Shown: one piece after another, positions 34,635 to 49,848 of the stretch
Layout: each line of letters starts with the position of its first letter
Position numbering within the stretch: the stretch's first letter is position 1
Assembly (NCBI GenBank): GCA_016699775.1
Contig: CP065010.1
Location: forward strand, 62,001-126,000
Reading direction: 5' to 3'
Origin: Candidatus Falkowbacteria bacterium
GTDB taxonomy: Bacteria; Patescibacteriota; Patescibacteriia; Patescibacteriales; Patescibacteriaceae
Length of the DNA stretch: 64,000 nt
The notes under the pieces: generated by a model
Database searches by the model: none
What the model was told of the DNA's origin: nothing
What the model saw: the letters and a program-made list of their open reading frames with translations, nothing else
Position numbers and translations under genes: made by a program

Positions 34635-34787
34635 TTGACAAAACATGATTGTAGTGATAATTTCTCGTTGAACATAGTTCCTTACAATTTAACTATTCTG
34701 TTATATTTATTGAATTTTTTTTGCCTTTCTTCTTGAGGATGGTTAAAGAAATTCAATAAATAAAAAATTAAAAAAGGAGAATCAATC
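34635..34787 (+). promoter_or_regulatory. Conserved leader, type B copy 1
   Basis: TTGACA (34635), 17 bp, TAATTT (34658), then GTTCCTTACAATTTAAC and a long hairpin: TTTATTGAATTT at 34706-34717 pairs with AAATTCAATAAA at 34749-34760, with an inner stem (GCCTTTCTT/AGGATGGT). An AAAAAAGGAG SD follows. The same leader precedes the unrelated genes at 45145 and 49849. Confidence 0.8.
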
Positions 34788-35021
34788 ATGATTCGTAAAT
34801 ATAGATTCCAAATCTTGACAGTATTTTTTTTGTTTTTAACAGGACTGTCAGGGGCCATGGAAGGCACAACTGAAAACTTTTTTTTCAACTTCTTTTTTGT
34901 CAGTACATTTTCAAGTTCAACAATTCATTGGATTGCTGGAGGATATGAAGAAAATATCAAATCAAAAATGAATAAAAGTGAAGTGTTCATGAGTAGTTTT
35001 TTATTATGGGCACTATGGTGA
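34788..35021 (+). CDS. Small membrane protein of a three-gene operon
   Basis: 77 residues, not recognised. An N-terminal hydrophobic helix (FQILTVFFLFLTGLSGAM), a Phe-rich segment (FFFNFFFVSTF) and a final FLLWALW suggest a membrane protein. Its stop overlaps the next start (ATGGTGA), so the pair is translationally coupled. Expressed from a type B leader with a strong SD (AAAAAAGGAG). Confidence 0.6.
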   Translation: MIRKYRFQILTVFFLFLTGLSGAMEGTTENFFFNFFFVSTFSSSTIHWIAGGYEENIKSKMNKSEVFMSSFLLWALW

Positions 35022-35176
35022 TCTGTGTTTCAAGTGTTTATAGGGTCCTTCCAGAGTCACTGAAGATATACGGCAAAGAAATATCATTAATTGTATGTGT
35101 GGTTTTTCTTTCCCTTATCTTGATAATTGGAAAGAAGGAAAGAAAAATCAGGTCAAAAGTGCAAAAACAAAATTAA
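35015..35176 (+). CDS. Small single-helix membrane protein
   Basis: 53 residues starting at the ATG that overlaps the previous stop codon (ATGGTGA). One transmembrane helix (ISLIVCVVFLSLILIIG) is followed by a strongly basic tail (KKERKIRSKVQKQ), so the C terminus is probably cytoplasmic. No family was recognised. The overlap and tight spacing to the next gene make it likely to be real. Confidence 0.6.
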   Translation: MVICVSSVYRVLPESLKIYGKEISLIVCVVFLSLILIIGKKERKIRSKVQKQN

Positions 35177-35200
35177 AAAATTAAACTGGAAGGAGAAAAG

Positions 35201-35395
35201 ATGGCAAAGCTTTCATTTGTATTAATGTTGTTGTTTCTTTTTTTGACAATATTATTTCTGGCAAAACTTCTTAGTCCAGAAATTGATATATTGCCATTAA
35301 ATGAGATTAGTAAAGGCTCTTTGCTTGGTTATTCCTTGATATGCATAGTCTTAACAATCGTATTTTTTTATTGTAGTAAAAAGTTTTTTAGATGA
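35201..35395 (+). CDS. Small two-helix membrane protein
   Basis: 64 residues: LSFVLMLLFLFLTILFLAKLL and GYSLICIVLTIVFFYC are two helices joined by a short polar loop, ending in a basic tail KKFFR. A strong SD (GGAAGGAG) lies 8 nt before the ATG. Third gene of the type B operon; unknown function. The set of three tiny membrane proteins suggests a small membrane complex, toxin or lysis-like module, but nothing identifies which. Confidence 0.6.
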   Translation: MAKLSFVLMLLFLFLTILFLAKLLSPEIDILPLNEISKGSLLGYSLICIVLTIVFFYCSKKFFR

Positions 35396-35421
35396 ATTAA
35401 CTAAATAACTTTCCTTTTGCT

Positions 35422-35462
35422 AAATAGGCCTTTCTTAATGTAATTTTGAGGCCTATTTTTTT
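35422..35462 (+). terminator. Terminator
   Basis: AAATAGGCCT pairs with AGGCCTATTT, followed by T residues. Confidence 0.88.
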
Positions 35463-35495
35463 GTATATTAGTAACCATAAAAGTGAGGAGAACGA

Positions 35496-35524
35496 TTGAC
35501 AAATATCATATAAAACTTTAAAGT
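35496..35524 (+). promoter_or_regulatory. Promoter
   Basis: TTGACA (35496), 17 bp, TAAAGT (35519); reads into the gene at 35553. Confidence 0.7.
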
Positions 35525-35552
35525 AGCAATAATCAAACAAAAAGGAGTAGTT

Positions 35553-35696
35553 ATGCCCATTAAAAACCTAAAAAAGAAAAGTGGCGTTAGTGTTGAAATT
35601 CTTTCAGAAGGGGCGGTTAGAGAAGGATTGACTCTTGAGGAGTATATTTGTCAGGTTGGTCTCCCCGATAACCCTACATTTCAGATCTTAATTTAA
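35553..35696 (+). CDS. Small hypothetical protein
   Basis: 47 residues, starting MPIKNLKKKSGVSVEIL and ending PDNPTFQILI. A strong SD (AAAAAGGAG) lies 6 nt upstream and a promoter lies 30 nt further up. It is soluble with no recognisable motif. A second open frame starts 19 nt downstream and appears to be its operon partner. Confidence 0.55.
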   Translation: MPIKNLKKKSGVSVEILSEGAVREGLTLEEYICQVGLPDNPTFQILI

Positions 35697-35715
35697 AGTA
35701 TTAAGGAGTAAAGAG

Positions 35716-36117
35716 ATAGATTCTGGTTTTAAAAATTTTGTATTTCAAGCAGCACTTGAAATAAGTAAAACTGATGAGGATCGTGAGGCGTTAGCACCTT
35801 ATGTAGAAGAATTTGAATCTATAAGCGGGGCTACATCAAGTAATGCTTTATTGGAAACAAAAAAAATAGAATTTATAACGGACGTCGAGCGGAAATTTTT
35901 TAAAGATTTATTAAATGAGTTAACTTCTGAGATTTCTAAAAATGAAAAGAGAAGAGTTTTAGAAAAGCTGAATGAATTTGTTAACGATTTAATTAAGAGA
36001 GCAAATGGCAATCTTGATTATTTACAAGAAATTTTTTACTTATCACCAGGAGGTATAAATATCAAAAGTGCCTTCATAAAACAAGAGTTAAAGAAAGGAG
36101 GGATTAATTTATCTTGA
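35716..36117 (+). CDS. Hypothetical helical protein with a non-canonical start
   Basis: 133 residues if begun at the ATA at 35716, 7 nt after AAGGAG. The frame from there is protein-like throughout (DSGFKNFVFQAALEISKTDEDREALAPYVEEFE...), and no ATG, GTG or TTG occurs until TTG at 35851, which would discard a third of the protein. So either ATA is used or an ATG has mutated to ATA. The protein is charged and helical (KRRVLEKLNEFVNDLIKRANGN) without known motifs. Partner of the 47-residue protein upstream. Confidence 0.5.
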   Translation: MDSGFKNFVFQAALEISKTDEDREALAPYVEEFESISGATSSNALLETKKIEFITDVERKFFKDLLNELTSEISKNEKRRVLEKLNEFVNDLIKRANGNLDYLQEIFYLSPGGINIKSAFIKQELKKGGINLS

Positions 36118-36146
36118 AGACTCCCGGTAAATGGATAAAATAATAT

Positions 36147-36178
36147 GGCCGCTTGTTTGCACAATGCGGCTTTTATTT
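36147..36178 (+). terminator. Terminator
   Basis: GCCGC at 36148 pairs with GCGGC at 36166, then TTTTATTTTT. Confidence 0.75.
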
Positions 36179-36610
36179 TTACTTTATACCTAATAATTTA
36201 CTAAAGTAATGTATTAAGTTTTAGTCATATAAAAAATGTAATTGATGGGCTACTTAAATATGATTGTTTGGAATAATTGAGTGTTTGGGTTAAGAATGGT
36301 TATGTAGACAAAGATATTTTTTGTATAATCTATAACACTAAATATTGAAATGATGATAGCTATAAGAAGGTTAGGGAATGTAAATATAGAAGTTTTAAAG
36401 GACTGAAATGGATTTAATTGGTTATTATCGATAAAAACTAACAAAATAATTATAGCTATATATATTTTTTACTAGAATACTCAATAAATCATGGGATTAG
36501 CGGTAAATTATGATTATAGGTCTATCTCATTGACTAATGCCGTAGAGGAAGGATAGAGCAGATGAAATATGCAATAAGAAAAGTGCCTATTTATAAGGGA
36601 TTTTCTGCTC
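36179..36610 (+). other. Gene-poor AT-rich stretch
   Basis: I see no convincing gene. A 24-codon frame at 36562-36636 (MKYAIRKVPIYKGFSALDKK...) follows an AGGAAGGA sequence but runs through the promoter at 36611, so it may be only a gene remnant. Confidence 0.5.
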
Positions 36611-36639
36611 TTGACAAGAAAAAATATCCATGCTAGTAT
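36611..36639 (+). promoter_or_regulatory. Promoter of the G-free repeat RNA
   Basis: TTGACA at 36611-36616, exactly 17 bp, TAGTAT at 36634-36639, with TGC before the -10 (extended -10), as in the other accessory promoters here. Confidence 0.75.
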
Positions 36640-36700
36640 TTAGACATAAATTGCTCCTTTAAATTAAACATCTCATTCTCGAAACAGAGAATAAACCCAA

Positions 36701-36900
36701 CTCATCAACAAAAATCCCACCACATCAAAAAAACAACACATCTCACATCAAAAATCCCACCACATCAAAAAAACAACACATCTCACATCAAAAATCCCAC
36801 CACATCAAAAAAACAACACATCTCACATCAAAAATCCCACCACATCAAAAAAACAACACATCTCACATCAAAAATCCCACCACATCAACAAAAAACCCAC
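36701..36900 (+). repeat. Four perfect 40-bp tandem repeats, G-free
   Basis: Identical units at 36721-36760, 36761-36800, 36801-36840 and 36841-36880, flanked by partial units. The unit begins CACATCAAAAAAACAACACA and ends in AAAAATCCCAC. There are no spacers, so this is not a CRISPR array. Confidence 0.95.
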
Positions 36901-36931
36901 CACAAAAAACTTCAACAAATATCCAATCCCG

Positions 36932-36965
36932 CCTTTAAGAAATCTTCTTGAAGGTTCTTTTTTTT
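36932..36965 (+). terminator. Terminator after the repeat array
   Basis: CCTTTAAGAA pairs with TTCTTGAAGG around a 3-nt loop, followed by TTCTTTTTTTTT. Confidence 0.88.
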
Positions 36966-37032
36966 TATTTAAAAAATATTTTCTGTTTATAAATACCTTT
37001 AAATATATACATCATTAGTATCAAGGTGTTTC

Positions 37033-37080
37033 ATCGATGGGAGTAAAGGGTACGTACTCAGAGCTATTCGGTTAGGTAAT
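37033..37080. repeat. Diverged copy of the GGGTGGC intergenic element
   Basis: TTTCATCGATGGGAGTAAAG...TCAGAGCTATTCGGT aligns with the elements at 44876 and 46149 (TCGATGGGTGGCAAATGGG...TCAGAACTATT). Confidence 0.5.
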
Positions 37081-37155
37081 TAAAATTGACTAATTGAATA
37101 CTATGATGTAATGTAAAAAAATTCATTAACAATAAAATCTAAAAGGAGAATCAAG

Positions 37156-37557
37156 ATGGCAAAAAGAAAGTCTGAAAAAATTGTTTTAAAAGAAGGTAAT
37201 ATTATCGTGATTAAGAAGTTTGACAATCACACTAACAAAGAGTTTTATGATAAGGGGGAGGGTCCGGATAAAGCTAAAATCCTTGATCTTATTGAAGAAA
37301 ATGGTAAGTACAAGGAAATTGCAGTAGAAATTATCGGAGGCAAAATGTCTGCCAGAAAAATAGAATTTACATATTTTGGTAGTAATACGTGGCGATTGTT
37401 ATTTGAAGACCCGCATTCATTAAAAAGGGTCTATAGCATTAATGCCCCGTACTATAGGATGGAAATATTAAATGATGAAAAGCTGATTCCTTATGAGGAT
37501 GATCTTTTTACAGCGGAGGAACTTGCAGACTTAATATCGCGAGATGCCTTTGGATGA
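37156..37557 (+). CDS. Hypothetical accessory protein
   Basis: 133 residues, not recognised. Soluble, mixed alpha/beta, starting with a basic segment and ending with an acidic one (EDDLFTAEELADLISRDAFG). There are no cysteines, signal peptide or membrane helix. A strong SD (AAAAGGAG) precedes the ATG by 8 nt, and a terminator (37601-37632) follows. TTGACT at 37087 could be its -35 element. Confidence 0.6.
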   Translation: MAKRKSEKIVLKEGNIIVIKKFDNHTNKEFYDKGEGPDKAKILDLIEENGKYKEIAVEIIGGKMSARKIEFTYFGSNTWRLLFEDPHSLKRVYSINAPYYRMEILNDEKLIPYEDDLFTAEELADLISRDAFG

Positions 37558-37600
37558 GGGAAATAGCTTCCAAAATTGACTTGAGATGAATACATCCGTG

Positions 37601-37632
37601 AAGTCTTGACTAACAATAGTTCAAGACTTTTT
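37601..37632 (+). terminator. Terminator
   Basis: AAGTCTTGA pairs with TTCAAGACTT, followed by a T run. Confidence 0.85.
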
Positions 37633-37741
37633 TATTTATAAAAATACTCCATGCCTAATATGATTTATCAACGAATAGCAAATAGGAACTTAATTAAGTT
37701 ACTCAAAATATCATAACTATATAAAGTTATAGGCAAAATCA

Positions 37742-37884
37742 TTGACAAATACTAGTAAATATGATAATTTCTAGGATACTTGTTTTTTAACAATTTGGTT
37801 ATTTTTGAATGATTTGCTGATCTTCTAACTAATTTAGAGGCTTAGGAAATCATTCAAAAAACAAAAAACGAAAGGAGCTACAAA
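37742..37884 (+). promoter_or_regulatory. Conserved leader, type A copy 1
   Basis: TTGACA (37742), 17 bp, TAATTT (37765); then a leader whose hairpin pairs TTTTTGAATGATTT (37802) with AAATCATTCAAAAA (37847), enclosing an inner stem CTTCTAA/TTAGAGG, then CGAAAGGAG. It is almost identical to the leader at 40491 although the downstream genes differ. Confidence 0.85.
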
Positions 37885-38523
37885 ATGAAAAAAATTATTG
37901 TTTTTTATTTCGCAATATTTTTTTTAATATATACACAAAAGCTTTTTGCTCAAATTGAATGCTCTGAACTTCCAAATAAAAATAAATTTCCTCAAGCCGT
38001 AAATGATTTTGCTTACATTATAAATGATAGTGTTGAGCAAAAAATAGAACAAAAACTCCGTAGTTACTTTGAGTCTACGGGACTCGCATTAATCGTTGTA
38101 ACAGTTGATAGCTTAGATGGTTATACGGATGATTCTTACGCTCAAAATTTATTTGATTGCTGGAAACCCGGAGGAGAGAATAACGCCGGTATAATATTTT
38201 TAGTTGCACCTGGGGAAAGGAAATTAAGAATTCATACTGGCTACGGAATTGAAAGTAGTCTAACGGATGCACAATGCAACTTATTAATTAATAATATTTG
38301 TGTTCCCTATTTCAAAAAATCAAAGTATTCTTCAGGGATATTGAATGGGGTTGAGGAAATATTGGCAATAATTTTTCCGCAGGAACAACGTGATCGAATA
38401 AAAGAGGAGGAAGATAAGAATGCTGGGGATAATATACAGCATACAAAAAGAAGAAATAGCAAAACTTTTGGCGGGTTTCTTAAAGGAAAGAGTGGAGGCG
38501 GCGGAGATTCAGGATTCTGGTAA
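37885..38523 (+). CDS. Secreted TPM-domain protein, short form
   Basis: 212 residues. A signal peptide (IIVFYFAIFFLIYTQKLFAQ) precedes a TPM/YgcG domain: VNDFAYIINDSVEQKIEQKL, LIVVTVDSLDGYTDDSYAQNLFDCW, NAGIIFLVAPGERKLRIHTGYG and YFKKSKYSSGILNGVEEI. The C-terminal tail GGFLKGKSGGGGDSGFW is the Gly-rich SGxW ending typical of the family. It closely matches the first 160 residues of the protein at 41275 but lacks that protein's membrane helix and coiled coil. TPM proteins take part in membrane-associated quality control; the activity is uncertain. Expressed from a type A leader. Confidence 0.85.
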   Translation: MKKIIVFYFAIFFLIYTQKLFAQIECSELPNKNKFPQAVNDFAYIINDSVEQKIEQKLRSYFESTGLALIVVTVDSLDGYTDDSYAQNLFDCWKPGGENNAGIIFLVAPGERKLRIHTGYGIESSLTDAQCNLLINNICVPYFKKSKYSSGILNGVEEILAIIFPQEQRDRIKEEEDKNAGDNIQHTKRRNSKTFGGFLKGKSGGGGDSGFW

Positions 38524-38550
38524 TATTAGTGAAAATGAAATGTTGGGTTT

Positions 38551-38579
38551 AGCAGTTGTCCCTTAACAACTGCATTTTA
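38551..38579 (+). terminator. Terminator
   Basis: GCAGTTGT pairs with ACAACTGC, followed by ATTTTATTTT. Confidence 0.8.
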
Positions 38580-39043
38580 TTTTACAAAAAAATTCTATTG
38601 CAAAAGTGGTTTTTTAGTAGTTTTTACTGTAGCGGTTTCCAGAATTAGAATAAGGAGAATGCAGAAGTTACCTTACTAGACGTTGCTTACTATAGAATCA
38701 GATGTTGCCATGCTATTGAACCATTATTATCTAATCTTTTAAGTATTTCTGTAATATTCTCTCATAAACGCGACATTCCGATTACTTTATTGTGTATTCT
38801 TTCCCAGTCACCTTCCTTACTGTGTATTGTTGACCAATCAGAAAATAATATTATTAAGATATTTGATTTTTATATTTCTACTGACACGGATAAGGCAGTC
38901 GTAACTATCATACAAATTACTTCGTATTCACAGCGAGTCAGTTGCTTCTATATATTAAAAAAATTCATGGCAACATTCGGCACTCCTTTGATAATTTTAT
39001 ATTTTTTCGGTTATCGATTATTATAGTAGCTTTAATTTACACT
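38580..39043. other. Intergenic stretch without a supported gene
   Basis: Short open frames exist on the plus strand but lack an SD, a promoter or protein-like composition. Possibly decayed sequence between the first TPM unit and the toxin-antitoxin pair. Confidence 0.5.
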
Positions 39044-39754
39044 CTATTTTTCGTTACTATAGGCGAGTTTCAACAAGAATATCGTTTCAGTTCTAAGCTT
39101 TGCTCTTGCCCAATCTTTCTGTGGTTCTGTGAGTAGCTCACCAAGACCGTCGAGAATGTGCTTATTGTCCATCTGCTCAAGTTTATGAATGCATTTTTTT
39201 AACAAATCCTTAAAAGGCATGTTTGCTCTTAATTCTACTATGGTTTTATTTATCTCCCACATTTTTTTGTAGAAGAAATAGACATCAAATATATCTCGAC
39301 TTGTTTCTCCAATTCTTTCATACATTGCCATGAGTTTATGAGCAAACATATCCTCTCTAACCATTACAAGCATAGAAATACCAAGTAATGTTCTAATTTC
39401 GTATTCTGAACCAAAATTTCGAAGATTCACCTCTACTTTTATCTGCTGTGTGCCAAGTGCATAAGAAATAACATTCAATAAGTTGTAGTGCTTTATCATT
39501 GATTCAGTAATGGTTCCGTAGCTTGCTGTAATTTTCTGGAGCTTTTCAAATACTTCTTGCTTTTTAGTATCATCAAGCAAATCAAAATCAAGGTCAACTG
39601 AATTTCGGTTAAGATCATAAAACAAAAGTGCTGCCGTCCCACCTTTGAAACCTAGCGTAGTAGCCAGAGAAGTATCAGAATAGATATCCTTCAAGATTTG
39701 GAGCAAAATATTTTTATGTTTTAAATAATCGAGTGTCATATTATTGTTTTTCAT
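39044..39754 (-). CDS. AbiEii-type nucleotidyltransferase toxin
   Basis: 236 residues. The DNA-polymerase-beta-like nucleotidyltransferase motif LGFKGGTAALLFYDLNRNSVDLDFDLL (GG...DLDF) and the later KLMAMYERIGETSRDIFDVYFFYK are the hallmarks of AbiEii/MenT toxins, which modify tRNA acceptor ends or otherwise arrest translation. The start overlaps the upstream antitoxin gene by 14 nt, the usual toxin-antitoxin arrangement. It interrupts the two TPM units. Confidence 0.9.
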   Translation of the reverse strand: MKNNNMTLDYLKHKNILLQILKDIYSDTSLATTLGFKGGTAALLFYDLNRNSVDLDFDLLDDTKKQEVFEKLQKITASYGTITESMIKHYNLLNVISYALGTQQIKVEVNLRNFGSEYEIRTLLGISMLVMVREDMFAHKLMAMYERIGETSRDIFDVYFFYKKMWEINKTIVELRANMPFKDLLKKCIHKLEQMDNKHILDGLGELLTEPQKDWARAKLRTETIFLLKLAYSNEK

Positions 39755-40346
39755 TTAATTTTTTATAACGTTCAAAATATCTTTTCATAGTTTTTTCCAT
39801 TCGTTTGTTATGATATATTGGTAAAATTTCAAAAACCATATCCCAATCTATGCCACGCAAATTATCAAAATAATAATTTTTACTTACATAGACACGATCT
39901 AACAATGCACGTTCCTTGGTCGCCGTAGCAATGCCATTAACATGTTCGATGCCTGTTGTGTTGCTTAACACATAATCTTTCATTCGTATAAAAGTTATTT
40001 TTTGATCACTAATTTGAATCTCACGACTCACATAAGATGCAACAAAAATATTTCCATAGTATTGGAAATTCACACCCTCGCGAGTTAAGACAGTTTCAAA
40101 GCTCACGTATGATGGAGTATAGATTCGAGTCGCTAATTCAAAGCGACTATAATTTCTATCTTTTACATAAAACCCTCGGCGAACTCTAATCAACTTTCCG
40201 GCATTCACATATTTCTTCAATCTGTCGCCAACAATCACTTCATCGCTTTCATTCCATAACAAAGCAACATCTTTGGTCGAAAAGACTGTTTTAGTGGATC
40301 TCAATAATATATCTAAATATTCACCTTTTGTTGGTTTTATAATCAT
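39741..40346 (-). CDS. AbiEi-type antitoxin, winged-helix regulator
   Basis: 201 residues. The N-terminal winged helix (VFSTKDVALLWNESDEVIVGDRLKKYVNAGKLIRVRRGFY) is characteristic of AbiEi antitoxins, which repress their own operon and block the toxin. The C-terminal part (TKERALLDRVYVSKNYYFDNL) is the antitoxin domain. It lies directly upstream of and overlaps the toxin gene. Confidence 0.88.
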   Translation of the reverse strand: MIIKPTKGEYLDILLRSTKTVFSTKDVALLWNESDEVIVGDRLKKYVNAGKLIRVRRGFYVKDRNYSRFELATRIYTPSYVSFETVLTREGVNFQYYGNIFVASYVSREIQISDQKITFIRMKDYVLSNTTGIEHVNGIATATKERALLDRVYVSKNYYFDNLRGIDWDMVFEILPIYHNKRMEKTMKRYFERYKKLNEKQ

Positions 40347-40490
40347 TTGTAGACTGGAATAGGCTTTAAAAGCCCGTTACAGTCTATATATTAGCATAAT
40401 TTAGAAAATAAAGCAATAGTTAGTTTATGGAAGACAAAGCTTTACCTTACTAGAGATAGAGCTTTTGTACTTAAAAATGTCATAAAATCA

Positions 40491-40633
40491 TTGACAAATA
40501 CAAGAAAATATGATATGTTCTAGGATACTTGTTTTTTAACAATTTGGTTATTTTTGAATGATTTACTGATCTTCTAACTAATTTAGAGGCTTAGGAAATC
40601 ATTCAAAAAACAAAAAACGAAAGGAGCTACAAA
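40491..40633 (+). promoter_or_regulatory. Conserved leader, type A copy 2
   Basis: TTGACA (40491), 17 bp, TATGTT (40514) with TGA before it; then the same leader as at 37742 with only a few differences, including the hairpin at 40551-40610 and CGAAAGGAG before the ATG. Confidence 0.85.
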
Positions 40634-41158
40634 ATGAAAATCCTTATTAGGATTATTACTGTAATAATAGCTTTACTGTCTATTTTAATCTGTTTAGAGG
40701 TTTTACACTCCGTAATTTTATTGCCCCTATCTTCTCGAACTCTCGGGTCGATAATAGCCATAATCCTAAATAGTAAAAGTATTTGTATGTTTTCTCTTTT
40801 GATAGTAGGACTTGTTTTATTTCTTTATTTGTTTACTAAGGAGACTCCTAAAAAAGATTTTTACACCTTCCAAGTGTGTAAAATCAATTTAATGGTAAGG
40901 GGTAGTATCGAGTCTTCATATAGCATTTATAATCCGGAAAAAGTTTTTTGTAATGATATGAATGAATTAGTAACACAATTCAAAGAATTAAACATAAAAC
41001 TGAAGAGGCTGAAGGGAAATAAAAATCATGAAATAGTAATTGAGTTTAATCAGAGTCCGTTTATAGAGGGTGTAAATAATTATTTCACTCTATATACTGG
41101 GCTTACAGCCGAAGAACAGAATGAATTCTACAGAGAACTATATAAGGACTCATTTTAA
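40634..41158 (+). CDS. Two-helix membrane protein
   Basis: 174 residues, not recognised. Two N-terminal helices (RIITVIIALLSILICLEVLHSVILL and ICMFSLLIVGLVLFLYLF) are followed by a cytoplasmic or external domain of about 110 residues (YSIYNPEKVFCNDMNELVTQF...). First gene of an operon with the long TPM protein; the type A leader with SD lies directly upstream. Probably works at the membrane together with the TPM protein, which is inference from position. Confidence 0.65.
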   Translation: MKILIRIITVIIALLSILICLEVLHSVILLPLSSRTLGSIIAIILNSKSICMFSLLIVGLVLFLYLFTKETPKKDFYTFQVCKINLMVRGSIESSYSIYNPEKVFCNDMNELVTQFKELNIKLKRLKGNKNHEIVIEFNQSPFIEGVNNYFTLYTGLTAEEQNEFYRELYKDSF

Positions 41159-41274
41159 ATGAGGAATTATATAATTGCTGAGAGGAGAAGCTGATAATAA
41201 GACAAAACAAGTCACATTTCATTCTTTGTTGTTGTAACCTAAATCACAAACCTAAACTAAAACGAAAGGGAAAA

Positions 41275-43257
41275 ATGAAAAGAATCATTGTTATTTGCTT
41301 TGCATTACTTATTTTCATTATCAACGTTCAACAAGTTTTTGCAAAGAAAGATTGTTCCGAAATGCCTTCAAAACCCAATCCCCTACGAGCCGTAAATGAT
41401 TTTGCCAATATTATTGATGATAAAATTGAGCAAAACATAGAGCAAAAACTCCGGGATTACTATAATACAACAACGATTGCATTAATTGTTGTGACGGTTA
41501 ATAGTTTGGATGGAAAGGCGGATGATTCCTATGCTCAAGATTTATTCGATTGTTGGGGACCGGGTGGAAAGAATAATGCTGGTATTATTTTTTTAGTAGC
41601 TCCCAAGGAAAGAAAAACAAGAATTCATACCGGCTATGGAATTGAGGGTGATTTGACAGATGCTCAATCCAAAAAAATTATTGAGAAGAATATTATTCCC
41701 TATTTCAAAAAATCAGATTATTCTTCTGGAATATTGAATGGGGTGGAGAATATACTAGCTGTAACTGGTCCACAGAGCATGGAACAACGTAAGGAGGCAG
41801 TACGAATTAGAGAGGAGGAAAGTAGAAAAGTAAAGAAACAAATATTCGATGTGGTAATTAATATTGGAATAGGAATTATATTAATTATCGGTTTATTCTA
41901 TTTATCTCGATTCATGCTTAGTTTCTTGAGAAAAAAGAAATTAAGTAATCAGTTATTAAAGAGTTTAGAAAATCAGACTGAACAAATAATTCAGGCCCGT
42001 AAAGTAATTTCTGATTTATGTGAGAATACTAAAACTGCTCCAAAATGGGTTCAAGAAGAAGCAACTGAACATATGGAACAGGCAAATCAAAAATTACTTG
42101 AAGCTTCGCGTATCTTAGAAAAAGCTAAAGGTTCTGTAAAAGAAGCACCGGATCAAGTGTATGGTTTCTTACTCAAGGCCCGCACTTTGATTCATAAAGC
42201 AGAGAATAACTTCATTAAAGTAGATAAAGACTTACGTATAAAAGTTAATAAATTTGCTCAAGCTGCTCCTGTTAAAGCAGAGAAGGCAGTGCAGATTCTT
42301 GAGAAAAATCTCTGCGAAACTTTAGAGTTAACGAATCAGGGTTTTCGTTTTAATGAAGCAGTTACAAATCAAAATGATTTAAAAAAGAAATTTGAAGAAA
42401 CTGCAAAAAATCTTGGAAATAAAGAGTATGACCACATAATATGTCGAGAAAGCGATATAATTGCTTCAAAATCGAATGAGCTTTTTTCAGACATTAAAGA
42501 GGTTGTTCTCAAGAAAAAAGAAATCCATCAGAATCTTGATAGTCTTCTGAAGGTTGCCAAGGATCACTACTCTTCTTTTGAAAAATATGTTAAAGAAGTA
42601 GATCACCTTAAGAAGCAGTATCCAGAAAACGTATGGAAAAAACTTGAAACAGATTTATTAAGACTTACAGTAAAACTTCATCCTGAAAAAATTAAGGTTT
42701 TGAAAAATGAAATTGAAGATTTAAATAATATGAAAAATCAAAAATTTCATTTGGCAGCTTCAAAATTTAACAACTTTCAGGAACTAATAAATGATGTTGA
42801 GAAAGTATATTCTGAAATCAATGCTGTTTCTAGCCAACAGGAAAAATCAAAAAAAGATTTCTTTTCAGAGTACAAAAAAACAGAGACAGCTGTAAATTCA
42901 GCTTTAAGCAAAATAAAAGATTCAGATGTTTCTGGTGAAACAAAGCAAATTGCTAAGAAAGCAGCAATTAAATTAAATGAGACTGCCGTAGAATCAAGCA
43001 CTTCTATAGTTGATTGGTTTTTTCTTATCACTCTCTTGAAATCAACATGTTCTCTTGCTGAAGATGCATTTAAAAAAGCACAAAATGACATAGATGATGC
43101 AGAGAGAAGAAGAAGTCGCGAGAGAGATGATGAGGCAGAAAGTCGCAGAAATAGCTATTCAAATTCGGATACTTCATTCTCTTTTAGTTCAGATAGTGAT
43201 TTTGGTGGATTTGGAGGAGGAATGAGCGGAGGAGGTGGTGCTTCTGGAAGTTGGTAA
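41275..43257 (+). CDS. Membrane-anchored TPM-domain protein with long coiled coil
   Basis: 660 residues. Signal peptide (IIVICFALLIFIINVQQVFA), TPM domain (about 28-175; ALIVVTVNSLDGKADDSYAQDLFDCWGPGG), one membrane helix (IFDVVINIGIGIILIIGLFYLSRFML, about 195-220) and about 400 residues of charged helices with coiled-coil character. The tail SSDSDFGGFGGGMSGGGGASGSW is the standard Gly-rich ending of YgcG-type proteins. The TPM domain would be outside and the coiled coil inside. Paralogue of the short protein at 37885. SD GAAAGGG before ATG; 116 nt after the membrane-protein gene. Confidence 0.85.
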   Translation: MKRIIVICFALLIFIINVQQVFAKKDCSEMPSKPNPLRAVNDFANIIDDKIEQNIEQKLRDYYNTTTIALIVVTVNSLDGKADDSYAQDLFDCWGPGGKNNAGIIFLVAPKERKTRIHTGYGIEGDLTDAQSKKIIEKNIIPYFKKSDYSSGILNGVENILAVTGPQSMEQRKEAVRIREEESRKVKKQIFDVVINIGIGIILIIGLFYLSRFMLSFLRKKKLSNQLLKSLENQTEQIIQARKVISDLCENTKTAPKWVQEEATEHMEQANQKLLEASRILEKAKGSVKEAPDQVYGFLLKARTLIHKAENNFIKVDKDLRIKVNKFAQAAPVKAEKAVQILEKNLCETLELTNQGFRFNEAVTNQNDLKKKFEETAKNLGNKEYDHIICRESDIIASKSNELFSDIKEVVLKKKEIHQNLDSLLKVAKDHYSSFEKYVKEVDHLKKQYPENVWKKLETDLLRLTVKLHPEKIKVLKNEIEDLNNMKNQKFHLAASKFNNFQELINDVEKVYSEINAVSSQQEKSKKDFFSEYKKTETAVNSALSKIKDSDVSGETKQIAKKAAIKLNETAVESSTSIVDWFFLITLLKSTCSLAEDAFKKAQNDIDDAERRRSRERDDEAESRRNSYSNSDTSFSFSSDSDFGGFGGGMSGGGGASGSW

Positions 43258-43365: not shown

Positions 43366-43405
43366 CTTTAGGCTATGACAATATTGGGAAAAGTGAGAGA
43401 TTGAG
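43366..43405. repeat. TAGGCTA-GGCAATATTGG-type repeat
   Basis: TTTAGGCTATGACAATATTGGG...AGTGAGAGATTGAGA matches 49623-49655 and 50222-50260 (TAGGCTAGGGCAATATTGGAAG..GTG). All three lie between a terminator and the next gene. Confidence 0.65.
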
Positions 43406-43406
43406 A

Positions 43407-43464
43407 TTGACAAATAACTCTAAAAGTACCAGGATTTAAGTATCTATTATTAATATGTACATAT
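43407..43464 (+). promoter_or_regulatory. Conserved upstream region, type C copy 1
   Basis: TTGACA at 43407, then CTAAAA, CCAGGATTTAA and TATCTATTATTAATATG up to the start. The same block precedes the unrelated gene at 61283. The -10 element is unclear and there is no SD. Confidence 0.65.
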
Positions 43465-44817: not shown

Positions 44818-44846
44818 TTACTTTCCGAAATTTTCTTTATTTACTA

Positions 44847-44874
44847 AAAAACAGCCCGTAAACAGGCTGCTTTA
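44847..44874 (+). terminator. Terminator
   Basis: CAGCC pairs with GGCTG around CGTAAACA, flanked by A and T runs. Confidence 0.75.
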
Positions 44875-44875
44875 T

Positions 44876-44932
44876 TGATGGGTGGCAAATGGGACGTGTT
44901 CAGAACTATTCCGTGGGGTGAAATCAAGGAAA
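44876..44932. repeat. GGGTGGC intergenic element, copy
   Basis: GATGGGTGGCAAATGGGACG followed by TGTTCAGAACTATT...GTGGGGTGAAAT. Copies lie at 46149, 47650 and (diverged) 37033. The GATGGGTGGC head equals the end of the tRNA-His-like elements at 49430 and 51093. Confidence 0.8.
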
Positions 44933-44993
44933 TGGCTGAAACAATAGGTTCATCTCAAAAAATAGACTAATATAAGCCTATTTTAGGTATATA

Positions 44994-45144
44994 TTGACAA
45001 ATTACTATAAAAATGCTATTGTACTATGATAGCTAGTTCCTTACAATTTAACATTTTAGGTTATATTTATTGGATTTTTTGAGCTTTTTTGCACGAGAAG
45101 GCTGGGAAAATTCAATAATTATAAACTTAAAAAAGGAGATAAAA
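44994..45144 (+). promoter_or_regulatory. Conserved leader, type B copy 2
   Basis: TTGACA (44994), 17 bp, TATTGT (45017) preceded by TGC; then GTTCCTTACAATTTAAC and the hairpin ATTTATTGGATTTT/AAAATTCAATAAT with inner stem AGCTTTTTT/GAGAAGGCT. An AAAAAAGGAG SD follows. Confidence 0.8.
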
Positions 45145-45810
45145 TTGAAATGGTCAAAAATTATTTTTGGAATGGTTAAAACCATATATCATTTAATATG
45201 GTTCGAATATGTCCGATATGCTTTAAAAGAAATAGTTGAAGATATATTTAAAGAAAATTCCAAAAAGTCTACCGGTAATACCTTCATACTTCTTGTTGGT
45301 TTTACTCACTCTGGCAAAGAAACACTTGTAAAAAATAATAAACAGTTACGGGAAATGTTTCTCGTTCATAGTGATGAGATTCATGTATATCTAAATGAAT
45401 CTTTGAGATTTTTAAGAGATGATAACACCATTACTGGAGAAGCATATTGGGAACGACAATTCTTAACTCACATTGTTAGAAAGATGCTTTTACGGAGAGC
45501 TTTTAAAAGTAATATCAATGTCGTTAACGATTCGGCTAATCTCAGAAAGAGAGACCGATCTACTAAACTGGCGCTCGCTAAGAAATATGGATACCAAACA
45601 ATCATTATCCAGGTACAGTGTCCAGAGAGCGTTCTTCTAAAACGATTAGAAGATTCGGATAATAAGAAGTCAGATTTGGATCAATCCAGTAATTGGGTTG
45701 CTTTGTACGCAACACAAAAATCTCGTTTTTGCCCAGTTAAAGGCAATGAAGCTGATAGAGTAATTCATTATCATAGTGATTTTCTAAAACCAGAATATCT
45801 ACGAATATAA
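45145..45810 (+). CDS. P-loop kinase of the AAA_33/zeta-like group
   Basis: 221 residues from a TTG start, chosen because AAAAAAGGAG lies 7 nt upstream; a longer frame would run into the leader hairpin. Walker A is GFTHSGKET (about residues 52-60). The Asp-containing HSDEIHVYLNE and the NDSANLRKRDRS block correspond to the substrate and lid regions of small nucleic-acid or sugar kinases. LIIQVQCPES is the usual fourth strand. The N-terminal 45 residues are amphipathic and could associate with membrane. Substrate unknown; zeta-toxin-like activity is possible but not shown. Confidence 0.75.
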   Translation: MKWSKIIFGMVKTIYHLIWFEYVRYALKEIVEDIFKENSKKSTGNTFILLVGFTHSGKETLVKNNKQLREMFLVHSDEIHVYLNESLRFLRDDNTITGEAYWERQFLTHIVRKMLLRRAFKSNINVVNDSANLRKRDRSTKLALAKKYGYQTIIIQVQCPESVLLKRLEDSDNKKSDLDQSSNWVALYATQKSRFCPVKGNEADRVIHYHSDFLKPEYLRI

Positions 45811-45851
45811 TAAATGTAGTAAGTTAAATAACTTAAACCGAAAGGGAAATA

Positions 45852-46034
45852 ATGGTTAAAAAAATCTTTAAAATTGTTGTTTTTTGTATCGTGGCTTCGA
45901 TAATTATCGAAGGAGTTTGCTATTTACTAGGCCTAAAGTTAAATGGATCATTTATTGCTCAGACGGCTTTTAGAACTATGTATATAACATACGGATGGAT
46001 ACTCTCTAAAATGGTATCTCAGAGTGAGGATTAG
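45852..46034 (+). CDS. Small membrane protein
   Basis: 60 residues with two hydrophobic segments (IFKIVVFCIVASIIIEGVCYLLG and FRTMYITYGWILSKM). The SD is in ACCGAAAGGGAAA, the same intercistronic motif as before the genes at 41275 and 47321. Second gene of the kinase unit. Unknown function. Confidence 0.6.
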   Translation: MVKKIFKIVVFCIVASIIIEGVCYLLGLKLNGSFIAQTAFRTMYITYGWILSKMVSQSED

Positions 46035-46077
46035 TAATAGATAATTAAAATACTACCGGGAGAAATTCTGGAACAAC

Positions 46078-46113
46078 AAAACCCTGATCAGAGAAATCTA
46101 GTCGGGGTTTTTT
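46078..46113 (+). terminator. Terminator
   Basis: AAACCC pairs with GGGGTTT around 17 nt, followed by a T run. Confidence 0.78.
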
Positions 46114-46122
46114 ATTTACAAA

Positions 46123-46205
46123 AACACCCCATAACTAGGGCGTTTCTTCGATGGGTGGCAAATGGGATGTGTTCAGAACTATTAGGTGGCATGAAATAGA
46201 GGTAA
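46123..46205. repeat. Hairpin plus GGGTGGC intergenic element
   Basis: AACACCCC-ATAACTA-GGGCGTTT hairpin, then TCGATGGGTGGCAAATGGGA and TGTTCAGAACTATT. The hairpin is shared with the tRNA-His-like elements at 49396 and 51057. Confidence 0.8.
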
Positions 46206-46208
46206 TCA

Positions 46209-46351
46209 TTGATATTTTAGCCTAAATATGATATATTCTAGAATACTTGTTTTTTGACAATTTAGCAGATTATTGAATGATTTACTAAATTTCTAAGGCT
46301 TATTAGAGGTTTGGGAAATCATTTAATAATTTAAAGAAGAAGGAGTAAAAA
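46209..46351 (+). promoter_or_regulatory. Conserved leader, type A copy 3
   Basis: TTGATA (46209), 17 bp, TATATT (46232) preceded by TGA. Hairpin ATTATTGAATGATTT (46269-46283) pairs with AAATCATTTAATAAT (46316-46330), inner stem TTCTAA/TTAGAG. Compared with copies 1 and 2, both strands of the outer stem have changed together, which supports a selected RNA structure. Confidence 0.82.
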
Positions 46352-47302
46352 ATGTCTACAAAAGATATTATCAAAGATTATGGCACTACTGTTTCAGCTG
46401 AAGTATATAACAATGCTTTGCAGGGACATCAGTATATCCCACAAGCCGACCAAAGAATTGTTAATATTGTTTTAGAAAAAATTAATGATTTGCAGAAGGT
46501 AAAATCAATAATTTCCATCTTAGACCTTGGATGCGGACCCGGAAGACTTACGTATAAATTTGCTAAGAAAGGGACTCTGGTTCACGGAATAGATTTATCA
46601 GAAAGTTTTATCAATGCTGCAATCAATTTTAACTCTACTTATTCTCAAATTTCTTTCATGCAGTATGATTTTGCATCGGTCAATTTTCCTCACGAAGATA
46701 TGGCATCACAGTATGACATTATTGTTATGCAAGGTGTCATGCATCATGTTCATGGAGAAGAAAGAAAACTTTTTCTCGAAAGATGTCATAAACTTTTAAA
46801 CTCTGATGGCATACTTATTATCGGTGATGAATTCATTAAGCCATATATCCAGGAAGCCGACAGAATAGTTAATGTTGCAGAATTCTATCTGCATATTATC
46901 GGAGAAGCGATAAAGGGTGGTTTTATGGATCTTGCTTTTGAGGAAGCAAAAAACCTTATCGATGATACATTGTCAGGAGAAGAAGGTGCCGGTTTTGCAA
47001 ATGACGAGATTATTAAGTGGATATTTTATGTAGCCCAAAGATGTAATAAAGATTTCTATGAAGGGGGTTCAATGTATTACATTGATGTCCAGGATTTAAT
47101 TACCTTCCTTAAAAGGGAGTGTAGTGAGCTTGCCTCTACAAATGAAAAAAGCTTTAATCGAGGAGACTTCAAAGTGTCTCTTGATGTTTTTGAAAGAGAG
47201 CTACAGAAATATTCTTTCCAATTAGATAATACCAATACAATTGGCCCCGTTGATCAACTTGGAGGAATGGCCGTACTTACCTTTAAACAAAAAAATAATT
47301 AA
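46352..47302 (+). CDS. Class I SAM-dependent methyltransferase
   Basis: 316 residues. Motif I is ILDLGCGPGRLTYKFA (about residues 55-70), motif II VHGIDLSESFINAA, followed by FMQYDFASVNF and IIVMQGVMHHVHGEER, an ordinary Rossmann methyltransferase. The C-terminal third (HIIGEAIKGGFMDLAFEEAKNLI) is a helical insertion or cap. The substrate is not apparent. It follows a type A leader with a strong SD (GAAGGAG) and is followed 18 nt later by a small membrane protein. Confidence 0.85.
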   Translation: MSTKDIIKDYGTTVSAEVYNNALQGHQYIPQADQRIVNIVLEKINDLQKVKSIISILDLGCGPGRLTYKFAKKGTLVHGIDLSESFINAAINFNSTYSQISFMQYDFASVNFPHEDMASQYDIIVMQGVMHHVHGEERKLFLERCHKLLNSDGILIIGDEFIKPYIQEADRIVNVAEFYLHIIGEAIKGGFMDLAFEEAKNLIDDTLSGEEGAGFANDEIIKWIFYVAQRCNKDFYEGGSMYYIDVQDLITFLKRECSELASTNEKSFNRGDFKVSLDVFERELQKYSFQLDNTNTIGPVDQLGGMAVLTFKQKNN

Positions 47303-47320
47303 GCCGAAAGGAAAAATAGA

Positions 47321-47536
47321 ATGAAGCTAAAAACAATCGCTATTATTCTTGCCACCTTTGTTGTCTCGCAGATTTATTGCTTGGTGATAGGGGGATTAAC
47401 AATGGGAATACAGGGCCATGACTTTTTTTCAGTCATATGGATATCTCTATGGGTTGGACTTCTCTTTCTTGGTATTTGTGGATTATTATTTTGGATAAAT
47501 AATACCAAAGCTGACCTCTATTCTGATGGTCCCTAA
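47321..47536 (+). CDS. Small membrane protein
   Basis: 71 residues with two helices (TIAIILATFVVSQIYCLVIGG and VIWISLWVGLLFLGICGLLFWI). The SD lies in GCCGAAAGGAAAA. It repeats the layout of the previous unit: an enzyme gene followed by a small two-helix membrane protein. Unknown function. Confidence 0.6.
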   Translation: MKLKTIAIILATFVVSQIYCLVIGGLTMGIQGHDFFSVIWISLWVGLLFLGICGLLFWINNTKADLYSDGP

Positions 47537-47558
47537 AAATAAATATTGTACTTTCAAA

Positions 47559-47592
47559 TAAACCGTTACGCTTATATAAGTAACGGTTTTTT
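47559..47592 (+). terminator. Terminator
   Basis: AACCGTTAC pairs with GTAACGGTT, followed by T residues. Confidence 0.88.
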
Positions 47593-47649
47593 ATTTTAGT
47601 CAGAACTAAAAATACTCTATAAAGTAAGGCTAATCTAAAGAATTTCTAC

Positions 47650-47700
47650 TATGGGTGGCAAATGGGACGTGTTTAGAATAATTGAGTGGGGTGAGCGTGA
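47650..47700. repeat. GGGTGGC intergenic element, copy
   Basis: ATGGGTGGCAAATGGGACGT then TTTAGAATAATTGAGTGGGGTG. Upstream, AAGGCTAATCT is shared with the region at 49530. Confidence 0.75.
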
Positions 47701-47705
47701 GGTGA

Positions 47706-47802
47706 TTGACAAAATTAGTAAAATGTTTTAACCTATTAAGTTATTTCATTTAAAATATATTTCAAAAATAAAATCCGCCAAAAGCGGAGAAGGGATAGGA
47801 AA
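47706..47802 (+). promoter_or_regulatory. Promoter and hairpin leader
   Basis: TTGACA (47706), 17 bp, TAACCT (47729). A perfect hairpin TCCGC-CAAAA-GCGGA (47774) sits next to the SD (GAAGGG). A hairpin adjoining the SD is also seen before the other type IX-tail gene at 22455. Confidence 0.6.
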
Positions 47803-49332
47803 ATGAAACACATTATATTAGCTTTAGTATTACTCGTTTATTTAAACAAAGGATTTTCTCAGCAAGAACCATGGCAGCCGATCTGGTCTAGCGTTGTAGG
47901 TAGCTGGTCATACGCAGGAATATTTGTTGATAATGATCGCGGTTGCATTTTAAATTATAATCAACCCATTTTAGCAACTACTAATGGAGGAGAAACATGG
48001 CAATCATCTAATGTTTCTAACGGAAGATATATTGAAAAAGTCGCATTTTCACCACGGGGAGATACAGGTTATGCATTATTAACTTATATGCAATTAAATT
48101 TGTATAGAACCACAAACAGTGGAGTAACGTGGGGAATATATTCCCATGATCCGGGTTTATGGCAAACTAAGTGTTTCCATTTTGTAAATGGTTCTGTGGG
48201 CTTCTCAGGAACAAATAATGGTCTATACAAAACTGTAAATGCTGGTGTTAATTGGAGTAGAATTTCCTACTTACCTATTTGGGAGCCTTCTCCAGTTGAA
48301 AGTATCTCATTTATAAATGAGAATAAAGGTTTTATGATTGCGCATACAGCTAGTAACGATACGATTATTCTTCATAATACTACGGATGGAGGAAACAGCT
48401 GGAATGCATTATATTCTACAGGGAGTACGGTGATAAGAAAAATATATTTTACTGATGAAAGTATTGGATATATGTTGGATGGTAATAAAATTTTACGGAC
48501 ATCTGACAGTGGGGTACACTGGAATGTTCAACATGAAAGCAGTGCATTGTTGCAATCAATAAGTATAAATGCACAAGGAATAGGATATGCAGTAGGCAAG
48601 GCAGGTGGTAATCTTTATTTAGTAAAAACTATTAATAATGGATTATCTTGGAATGAATATATTCCCGCAAATATATCTGATGGTAATTTAATTAGTGATG
48701 TTCAAGTGCATTCTTCATACGCCTTTATCACAACATTTAATCATATCTACAAACTTCAACTAGATTGGGTACTTCCGGTTGAATTATCGGCATTTACTTC
48801 TTTGGTAACTAACAATAATGTAATTTTAAACTGGACTACCATTTCGGAAATAAACAACTCAGAATTTCAGGTGGAAAGAAAGAATGAAAGTAACTGGGAA
48901 ACAGTTGGGTATGTAGAGGGAAATGGAACAGCATCTATGCCTCATTCTTATCAATATATTGATAGAGATATACAATCAGGAAGTTACTTATATCGATTAA
49001 AACAAATTGATTATAATGGTAATTTTGAATATCTCAATTTGAGTAATGAAGTTATAATTGCAGTACCAAAGAAGTTTAATCTAAAACAGAACCACCCTAA
49101 TCCGTTTAATCCCTTAACAAGGATAGAATATACTGTTCCTTATGATGGAATAGTCACCTTGGCCATTTACGACATAAATGGGAGAGAGATTAGTAGTTTG
49201 GTAAAAGAAATTAAATCATCTGGGTATTACTCAGTTGATTTTGATGGAAGTAACTTAAGCAGTGGAATTTATTTTTACAGATTAATTGCTGGAAATTACA
49301 AAGTGACAAAGAGAATGATGTTGATAAAATAG
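47803..49332 (+). CDS. Secreted beta-propeller protein with type IX sorting tail
   Basis: 509 residues with a signal peptide (IILALVLLVYLNKGFSQ). Residues about 25-325 are repeats of the Ycf48/BNR type (TTNGGETWQSS, TTNSGVTWGIY, TVNAGVNWSRI, TTDGGNSWNAL, TSDSGVHWNVQ), a beta propeller. From LPVELSAFTS onward it matches the gene at 22455: fibronectin-like domain, then KQNHPNPFNPLTRIEYTVP, SSGIYFYRL and KRMMLIK, the type IX secretion sorting domain. It is AT-rich, unlike the first copy, so its import is older or from a different donor. No type IX apparatus is seen. Confidence 0.88.
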   Translation: MKHIILALVLLVYLNKGFSQQEPWQPIWSSVVGSWSYAGIFVDNDRGCILNYNQPILATTNGGETWQSSNVSNGRYIEKVAFSPRGDTGYALLTYMQLNLYRTTNSGVTWGIYSHDPGLWQTKCFHFVNGSVGFSGTNNGLYKTVNAGVNWSRISYLPIWEPSPVESISFINENKGFMIAHTASNDTIILHNTTDGGNSWNALYSTGSTVIRKIYFTDESIGYMLDGNKILRTSDSGVHWNVQHESSALLQSISINAQGIGYAVGKAGGNLYLVKTINNGLSWNEYIPANISDGNLISDVQVHSSYAFITTFNHIYKLQLDWVLPVELSAFTSLVTNNNVILNWTTISEINNSEFQVERKNESNWETVGYVEGNGTASMPHSYQYIDRDIQSGSYLYRLKQIDYNGNFEYLNLSNEVIIAVPKKFNLKQNHPNPFNPLTRIEYTVPYDGIVTLAIYDINGREISSLVKEIKSSGYYSVDFDGSNLSSGIYFYRLIAGNYKVTKRMMLIK

Positions 49333-49356
49333 ACACACAGAAATAAATTTATTATA

Positions 49357-49388
49357 AGGGACCATGGACAATTTAATGGTCCTTTTTT
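49357..49388 (+). terminator. Terminator
   Basis: AGGGACCAT pairs with ATGGTCCTT, followed by T residues. Confidence 0.88.
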
Positions 49389-49395
49389 ATTTCCA

Positions 49396-49516
49396 AAAAA
49401 CACCCCATAACTAGGGCGTTTTATCGATGGGTGGCTAGAGGGAATCGAACCCTCGCTAACGGGACCACAACCATTTAAGGGTGTTTTGGGCACTTCTACG
49501 AATACACTAGGCAAAC
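49396..49516 (-). pseudogene. tRNA-His-derived element 1 (3' half intact)
   Basis: On the minus strand, TTGTGGTCCCGT carries the GTG anticodon and 3' anticodon stem, followed by the T arm GAGGG TTCGATT CCCTC, acceptor TAGCCAC and a terminator hairpin (AACGCCC/GGGTGTT). The 5' half is unrelated apart from CTAGTGTA, so no cloverleaf forms. It looks like an attachment-site or duplication remnant of tRNA-His. Confidence 0.7.
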
Positions 49517-49697
49517 ACTATAAACCTTATAAAATAAGGCTAATCTGACTTTCTCAATTTCTTCAGTAGTCATCAATATTCTCATATTCTTCACTTCTTG
49601 GCCACAATATGGCCACAAAATTAGGCTAGGGCAATATTGGAAGGAGTGGAGACATAGAGTTATAAATGGCCCCCAAAATAGCCTATTTTATGCTATA
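49517..49697. other. Spacer with integration-site-like repeats
   Basis: No gene. It contains GTGGCCATATTGTGGCC (minus strand, 49598-49616), matched by a GTGACC version at 51264-51281, and the TAGGCTAGGGCAATATTGG repeat (49623). Both repeat words recur beside other units. Confidence 0.55.
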
Positions 49698-49848
49698 TTG
49701 ACAAATATTGATATATATGCTATTATGCCGTAATAGCTAGTTCCTTACAATTCAACTATTTAGGTTATATTTATTGAATTTTTTGAGCCTTTCTTAATGA
49801 GGAGGGTTGGAAAAATTCAATAAATAATAAACTAAAGGAGAAAGAACC
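49698..49848 (+). promoter_or_regulatory. Conserved leader, type B copy 3
   Basis: TTGACA (49698), 17 bp, TATTAT (49721) preceded by TGC; GTTCCTTACAATTCAAC; hairpin TTTATTGAATTTTT (49770) / AAAAATTCAATAAA (49811), perfect 14 bp, with inner stem CCTTTCTT/GAGGAGGG; SD AAAGGAG. Confidence 0.82.

Follow-up and report, generated by a model that had tools for sequence, protein, structure and literature searches.

Six leaders in the window

A stretch of 64,000 nucleotides (nt) from the Candidatus Falkowbacteria contig CP065010.1 (the window) carries six short leaders in front of protein-coding genes. Results for the window concern this stretch; genome-wide statements concern its relatives (G001-G013, G378 and others). 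The window UvrA is 91% identical to that of a metagenome-assembled genome (L011), 83% to that of Ca. Falkowbacteria UBA2355 (L012) and 70% to that of another Falkowbacteria (L013); the rest share 56-61%. The original prediction had described three copies of a leader A and three of a leader B, and all six were found, at positions 34635, 37742, 40491, 44994, 46209 and 49698. The promoter attributed to them (TTGACA or TTGATA, 17 nt, TANNNT) is present in every copy; the TG one base upstream of the -10, claimed for most, was seen by eye in all six. Between the promoter and the hairpin lies a linear element, and this boxA-like element, which the original prediction did not name, is the part most widely shared between species. 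In well-studied bacteria boxA is the docking site of NusB with S10/NusE. From its sequence, the linear element ahead of the hairpin is likely to be boxA, and the leaders are probably Nus-factor leaders with a hairpin module. The features are given below; promoters were read from the sequence and hairpins obtained by folding.

34635-34663 (+), B1 promoter, TTGACA-N17-TAATTT with TG before the -10
34677-34687 (+), B1 boxA-like element GTTCCTTACAA, two mismatches to GYTCTTTRANA; the same box occurs in G005 (L274)
34704-34762 (+), B1 hairpin
34788-35021 (+), open reading frame (ORF) of 77 amino acids downstream of B1, no Pfam family
37742-37770 (+), A1 promoter
37782-37792 (+), A1 boxA-like element GTTTTTTAACA, one mismatch
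37802-37860 (+), A1 hairpin
37885-38523 (+), TPM-domain protein downstream of A1 (E 8.5e-35)
40491-40519 (+), A2 promoter
40531-40541 (+), A2 boxA-like element, one mismatch
40551-40609 (+), A2 hairpin
40634-43257 (+), genes downstream of A2: ORF of 174 amino acids without Pfam family (40634-41158) and TPM-domain protein (41275-43257)
44994-45022 (+), B2 promoter
45036-45046 (+), B2 boxA-like element, two mismatches
45065-45120 (+), B2 hairpin
45145-45810 (+), AAA_33 P-loop protein downstream of B2 (E 6.7e-13), likely TTG start, chosen by eye
46209-46237 (+), A3 promoter
46249-46259 (+), A3 boxA-like element GTTTTTTGACA, one mismatch to GYTCTTTRANA and two to GYTCTTTAANA
46267-46332 (+), A3 hairpin
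46352-47302 (+), methyltransferase downstream of A3 (E 8.1e-17)
49698-49726 (+), B3 promoter
49740-49750 (+), B3 boxA-like element, two mismatches
49768-49826 (+), B3 hairpin
49849-50160 (+), ORF of 103 amino acids downstream of B3, no Pfam family

A Shine-Dalgarno (SD)-like word precedes the start codon in all six copies. The B2 gene probably starts at the TTG at 45145, downstream of the SD, which corrects the earlier annotation. The downstream genes are unrelated, as had been stated: by Pfam they encode TPM-domain, AAA_33 and methyltransferase proteins and ORFs without a family. The transcription units are short, with one to three small genes. A1 and A2, reported to be almost identical, share 95% identity over 165 nt.

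The boxA-like element and the hairpin

A scan for promoter, hairpin and reading frame gave 49 rows: two from the window, 16 from the sister species G005, 30 from G004 (contigs C1-C5) and one from G001. It is neither complete nor clean, because only two of the six window leaders were recovered, and by eye many rows were coding DNA, tRNA genes, terminators or core genes. From these rows and from other searches, leaders in G004 and G005 were chosen by eye, namely 19 from G004 (L253-L271), one more on its contig C6, and four from G005 (L272-L275). Four of the G004 leaders (L260, L262, L263 and L270) do not have the full TTGAC-TANNNT pattern.

The 30 G004 rows had been chosen without regard to the box. 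The word GTTCTTTGAAAA occurs there with at most two mismatches in 10 rows and at most one in seven; permuted words gave a mean of 0.15, and none of 2000 permutations reached 10. Since this word was read off the data, the test was rerun with the consensus GYTCTTTAANA given in PMC5725501. At most one mismatch was found in six G004 rows (mean 0.18, 0 of 2000 permutations) and at most two in 13 (mean 2.01, 1 of 2000). G005 contained one exact match among 16 rows, and two rows with at most one mismatch (8 of 2000 permutations each). A further test was anchored on TTGACA promoters and covered G004 (contig C6 included), G005 and the window. The word TCTTTRAAAA stood beside these promoters exactly six times in G004 (mean 0.06) and three times in G005 (mean 0.04), and with at most one mismatch 22 times (mean 1.86) and 12 times (mean 1.30), respectively; none of 400 permutations gave counts as high in either genome. 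The curated leaders have 0-3 mismatches to GYTCTTTRANA. By eye, boxA-like words (GAACTTTGAAAA, GAACTTTGATAA, GAACTTTAAAAA or GAACTTTRA) are also present in the rRNA leaders of G003, G004 and G005; none was seen by eye in that of G001, and G002 is masked there. When the window was searched at three mismatches, the B box returned only the known B copies (three matches, 4.08 expected by chance) and the A box returned the A copies and one more place (four matches, 0.93 expected).

The hairpin consists of a lower stem, a small mismatch, an upper stem and a short loop. Folded alone, the six window leaders have z-scores of -4.75 to -6.97 relative to dinucleotide shuffles, and in no case was any of 200 shuffles as stable. 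Among 36 curated hairpins of 40-85 nt (from which L276 of G005, L277 of G002 and L278 of G001 were excluded), the median z is -6.9; z is below -3 in all 36 and none of 100 shuffles is as stable in any, although this is no blind test because the list was picked for hairpins. Stems, internal loops and apical loops vary among copies, even within G004, and recognition of the hairpin by its sequence is therefore unlikely. By eye, many hairpins carry RAG in the 5' arm and GGYUU in the 3' arm, close to the middle.

Compensatory change had been taken as a sign of a selected RNA structure, and a maintained structure is supported: the stems vary yet still pair. Covariation was scored on four sequences, A1-A3 and one A-type copy from another species. 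Of all cells, 95.8% are paired and four of 24 pairs are altered on both sides; 15 of the 24 pairs are invariant. The score was 0.264, against a shuffled mean of 0.159 (one of 500 shuffles reaches 0.264) and at most 0.090 for slid versions. Two further measures were less striking: 12 of 500 shuffles had as many pairs altered on both sides, and 151 of 500 had as many pair types. The covariation of these four sequences is good but small evidence.

At the gathering score, Rfam matched only the tmRNA and tRNAs across the window and no leader; relaxing the cut-off to E 1 added three weak matches, none overlapping a leader. A known Rfam leader was set aside on this basis. A riboswitch was also rejected, since the stems and loops are variable and leave no conserved ligand-binding core.

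Copies in relatives and spread across the class

Covariance models were built from A1-A3 (R1) and from B1-B3 (R2). R1 matches the B copies at E 5.6e-6, 3e-5 and 0.0044, and R2 matches the A copies at 8.7e-7, 1.8e-6 and 0.089; the alignment spans the CTAG box and runs into the hairpin. The reverse strands of their own hairpins are matched by both models just as well or more strongly (E as low as 3.4e-8 and 8.2e-7); part of these scores therefore comes from symmetry and AT content. The cross-matches alone are weak; the copies in G005 are better evidence. An A-type copy (L154/L275, E 5.9e-8; its reverse strand 1.5e-5) and a B-type copy (L093/L274, E 1.2e-5) occur in this species, 1.8 kb apart and, by eye, near a tRNA gene. 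The B-type copy retains TAGTTCCTTACAATTTAA, whereas its stem differs and still pairs (TTTATGGTTAAGAAATA with TATTTCTTAATCATAAA). The two families of the original prediction are not clearly separate, as each model finds the copies of the other, and the sequences of A and B are best interpreted as subtypes of a single leader. Ahead of their promoters, the two G005 leaders have some 45 nt in common (L099, about 8600-8680 and 10420-10500, minus strand; TATTTATTATATTAA..CACTTCA.GCTT.AATTCAGC), possibly an upstream element or a scar.

Further copies occur in G005, in G004 and in a second family, so the outcome that would have refuted the original prediction, no copies elsewhere, did not arise. About 20 curated leaders built in this way are dispersed across the contigs of G004. 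In the family of 13 genomes, at E up to 0.01, R2 matches four and R1 two; at E up to 0.05, R2 matches all four genomes of the genus of G002. Hairpins whose 5' arm contains GGTTGGTTTTC or TTTGGTTTTC were observed in G004 (C4:94567- and C5:52157-), G002 (L091) and G001 (L092); in G004 they follow a boxA-like word and possibly represent a third hairpin type. Two exact leader patterns found 2 and 8 stretches in viral contigs, none with the build of the leader, and a strict B pattern had no match among genome contigs.

The promoter-linked word TTYTTTRAAA gave 34 matches in 11 of the 13 family genomes, against two for the reversed pattern. All six G004 matches lead into a long hairpin; most of the other loci viewed (30 of the 34 were viewed overall) run directly to an SD or reading frame. 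Outside the family, R2 matched G378, and in the family of G378 the pattern search picked out 12 of the 39 genomes, with 14 matches in all and none for the reversed pattern. A hairpin was accepted in seven of these 14 loci, i.e. at least seven leaders in the second family; of the loci called by script, L297 (no frame) and L301 (hairpin inside the frame) were rejected, and L296 and L302 were added by eye and folded. Across the class, a promoter-linked boxA was found in 117 of 380 genomes (184 matches against five reversed), mostly without a hairpin. Of 30 class loci read, 23 have no long hairpin and seven have one by a loose rule; no 16S start was found downstream of any of the 30, within the stretch viewed. 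The class-wide search with R2 matched two of 380 genomes, which says little on absence because at most 10 candidates were scored per genome.

The distance from the box to the start codon was measured in 28 leaders outside the window that have a start codon and a box at no more than two mismatches. The median is 31.5 nt when the hairpin is left out of the count (interquartile range 25-40) and 90 nt when it is included; the 23 hairpin-less class loci gave 30 nt (interquartile range 18.5-39.5). The simplest reading of these sequences is that box and start codon keep a set spacing, into which a hairpin would have been inserted and from which it would be looped out.

NusB is encoded in 12 of the 13 family genomes, and a single NusG-domain match was found in 12, with none in the 13th. 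The RNA-binding domain of Rho was detected in none of the 13 family genomes, some of which are incomplete, and in nine of 14 control genomes. Rho protection was set aside on this result, and a LoaP-type leader for the lack of a NusG paralogue in the 13 genomes.

Among 20 proteins behind the G004 and G005 leaders, two score above the cut-off for a Pfam family (TPM domain and UVR motif), and two other hits fall below it. A TPM-domain gene follows a leader in G004 as well as in the window, and signal- or membrane-like N-termini were seen by eye in many of the proteins behind leaders. A crude pattern, which overlooks at least L259 and L275, recognised no SD-like word in 20 of 35 curated hairpin leaders of G004, G005 and the second family, whereas each of the six window copies has one.

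Other features were observed around the leaders. Repeats at 49397-49471 and 51060-51134 of the window, with shorter relatives at 44847, 46120 and 47620, end on the reverse strand in a tRNA-like T arm (CGAGGGTTCGATTCCCTCTAGCCACCC); a terminator-like hairpin comes next, and several gene units come after. Such repeats ahead of gene units may mark repeated integration. The repeats are not the tmRNA 3' end, and integration at that end was set aside, as it does not recur in the window. An AbiEii-type toxin with a weak AbiEi-type partner (39044-40346, minus strand) adjoins leader A2, and five tandem copies of a 40-nt CA-rich repeat lie at 36666-36905. Proteins with a Por secretion-system C-terminal sorting domain are encoded at 22455-23861 and 47803-49332; this domain is typical of Bacteroidota-like lineages, and these proteins were probably acquired. 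In G005, the 16S rRNA gene (L140, C1 about 96750-97420) is interrupted by an insert and appears as two RF00177 pieces; judging from its sequence, the reading frame in the insert looks like a homing endonuclease.

A probable Nus-factor leader

The common cis-regulator proposed originally stands as a probable common cis-element; what changes is that the boxA-like part is shared most and the stems are free to change. Each copy has the build of a 5' mRNA leader: its promoter is of the extended -10 type, a boxA-type element follows 7-20 nt or so past the -10, and next come an imperfect hairpin of 40-85 nt and a start codon, often with an SD. NusB-S10 would grip the boxA element as the RNA leaves RNA polymerase. 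The hairpin would be looped out, which would hold boxA and the start codon some 30 nt apart, the spacing seen in the hairpin-less boxA leaders of the class; the hairpin may also shield the 5' end of the mRNA. The Nus complex might then set the efficiency of translation start or the coupling of transcription and translation, like the translational step at suhB of Escherichia coli. Without Rho, the effect cannot be protection from this factor or its provocation. As the module carries its own promoter, it could serve newly acquired genes. If the element is boxA, the chances are about even that it acts via translation or coupling; resistance to intrinsic termination or pausing is the less probable route, and some other action less probable still.

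Several observations weigh against this interpretation. The exact consensus GYTCTTTAANA occurs in none of the 30 G004 rows, and a GTTCTTTGAAAA-type box within two mismatches in only two of the 16 G005 promoter-hairpin rows. The window boxes are off consensus by one base (A) or two bases (B), and the window alone is not enriched in TCTTTRAAAA (no exact match, and one with at most one mismatch, a count reached by 71 of 400 permutations); the identity of boxA in the window rests for this reason on homology with the G005 and G004 leaders. The G001 and G002 copies (L092 and L091) have no clear box. Box and hairpin taken without the promoter barely exceed permuted words (18 rows in G004; 60 permutations, mean 5.4, maximum 14), a poor statistic that was replaced by the promoter-anchored tests. 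Long hairpins were called for 13 of the 30 G004 box rows and for two of the 21 in G005, one of the latter two being a tRNA gene by eye, and only two of the six G004 places with TCTTTRAAAA have a called hairpin, which indicates that box and hairpin are separable. The reversed-pattern control also breaks the promoter; the permutation test in G004, G005 and the window is the stricter control. Of the Nus set, the family was examined for two genes, NusB and NusG.

Among the closest known systems are the boxA-controlled mRNA leaders of gamma-proteobacteria described in PMC5725501, those of suhB and of a ParE-like toxin gene of Citrobacter koseri. At E. coli suhB, according to that account, a boxA 6 nt from the SD represses translation, and Rho termination follows; the first half of this mechanism, translational repression, could by analogy work without Rho. 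Both systems have a boxA-like word in the 5' untranslated region of mRNAs, likely Nus-factor partners and unrelated targets; whereas the leaders here have many more copies per genome, a long hairpin between boxA and start, and no detected Rho domain. The search in the same source reported 0-7 boxA mRNAs per genome within 50 bp of the start; in the 28 leaders the box lies about 90 nt from the start if the hairpin is counted and 31.5 nt if it is not. The leaders of rRNA operons (boxB, boxA, boxC) contain a similar boxA-like word; however, the leaders here belong to protein-coding mRNAs. The antitermination leaders of LoaP, as described in PMC12691694, likewise have a hairpin ahead of accessory genes; LoaP, however, is a paralogue of NusG, and here 12 of the family genomes have one NusG-domain gene each and the 13th has none.

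Two alternatives are equally unlikely. In the first, the leaders would act like lambda nut: boxA loads Nus factors, a boxB-like hairpin binds a specificity protein, and intrinsic terminators or pauses in the accessory genes are read through. The order of boxA and then hairpin, close to the transcript start, is indeed that of nut in the accounts of PMC10250234 and PMC12691694. However, the boxB of lambda is short with a conserved loop bound by N, whereas the hairpins here are of 40-85 nt, share no loop, and differ in stem and loop within one genome, leaving no common recognition sequence. The leaders sit on single accessory genes in a cellular genome, the window units have only one to three short genes, and neither a second NusG-domain gene of the LoaP kind nor a Rho domain was found in the 13 family genomes. 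No N-like protein is known here, and no search for one was made. In the second alternative, a stabilising 5' hairpin would be joined to a favoured initial transcribed sequence, and the boxA-like word would reflect promoter escape or AT-rich 5' ends without any Nus factor. The free variation of stems and loops at retained stability (z below -3 in all 36 hairpins of a list chosen for hairpins) suits such a role; but the box word is specific when compared with permutations of the same letters, and is used across the class without a hairpin.

A translational switch, in which the 5' element would pair with the SD across the hairpin and the equilibrium would be shifted by a ligand or protein, is considerably less probable. 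Pairing with the own SD region is slightly stronger than in swapped leaders (-4.82 against -4.32 kcal/mol; six of 200 swaps as strong; n=35, with A2 of the window excluded), and B has TTCCTT facing AAGGAG. Nevertheless, the 20 of 35 leaders without a crude-pattern SD word still keep the box, and there is neither a conserved ligand core nor an Rfam match. It is hardly credible that the units are cassettes moved by recombination with the inverted repeats as recombination sites, despite the resemblance of A1 and A2 to a duplication and the tRNA-3'-end-like repeats ahead of several window units (44878, 46151, 47651, 49427 and 51090): every listed copy has the hairpin after the box and ahead of the start codon, in a single orientation, the stems differ among copies and the G004 leaders are spread over contigs; a recombination site was set aside for the single orientation and variable stems.

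The interpretation as a Nus-factor leader may extend to the class. In PMC5725501, boxA on mRNAs is described as a limited side use of the rRNA system, with few targets per species. No account of boxA mRNA leaders in Patescibacteria was found in the open-licence PMC literature, where papers with both 'Patescibacteria' and 'boxA' were off-topic by their titles and abstract starts. It is conceivable, though rather doubtful, that in this class, partly without Rho, promoter-linked boxA is a general 5' mRNA signal, through which the Nus complex links transcription with translation for many genes instead of acting mainly on rRNA, and that the looped-out hairpin module is used in at least two families, mainly for accessory genes. 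The data suggest a shared control element on many unrelated genes in cells where Rho was not found. If true, a lineage with many promoter-linked boxA mRNAs and no Rho detected would uncouple the Nus complex from Rho, and what the complex does to mRNAs without Rho could be tested. Gene control in ultra-small bacteria, most of which are uncultured, would also become more accessible, and their accessory genes would have an expression module that can be recognised.

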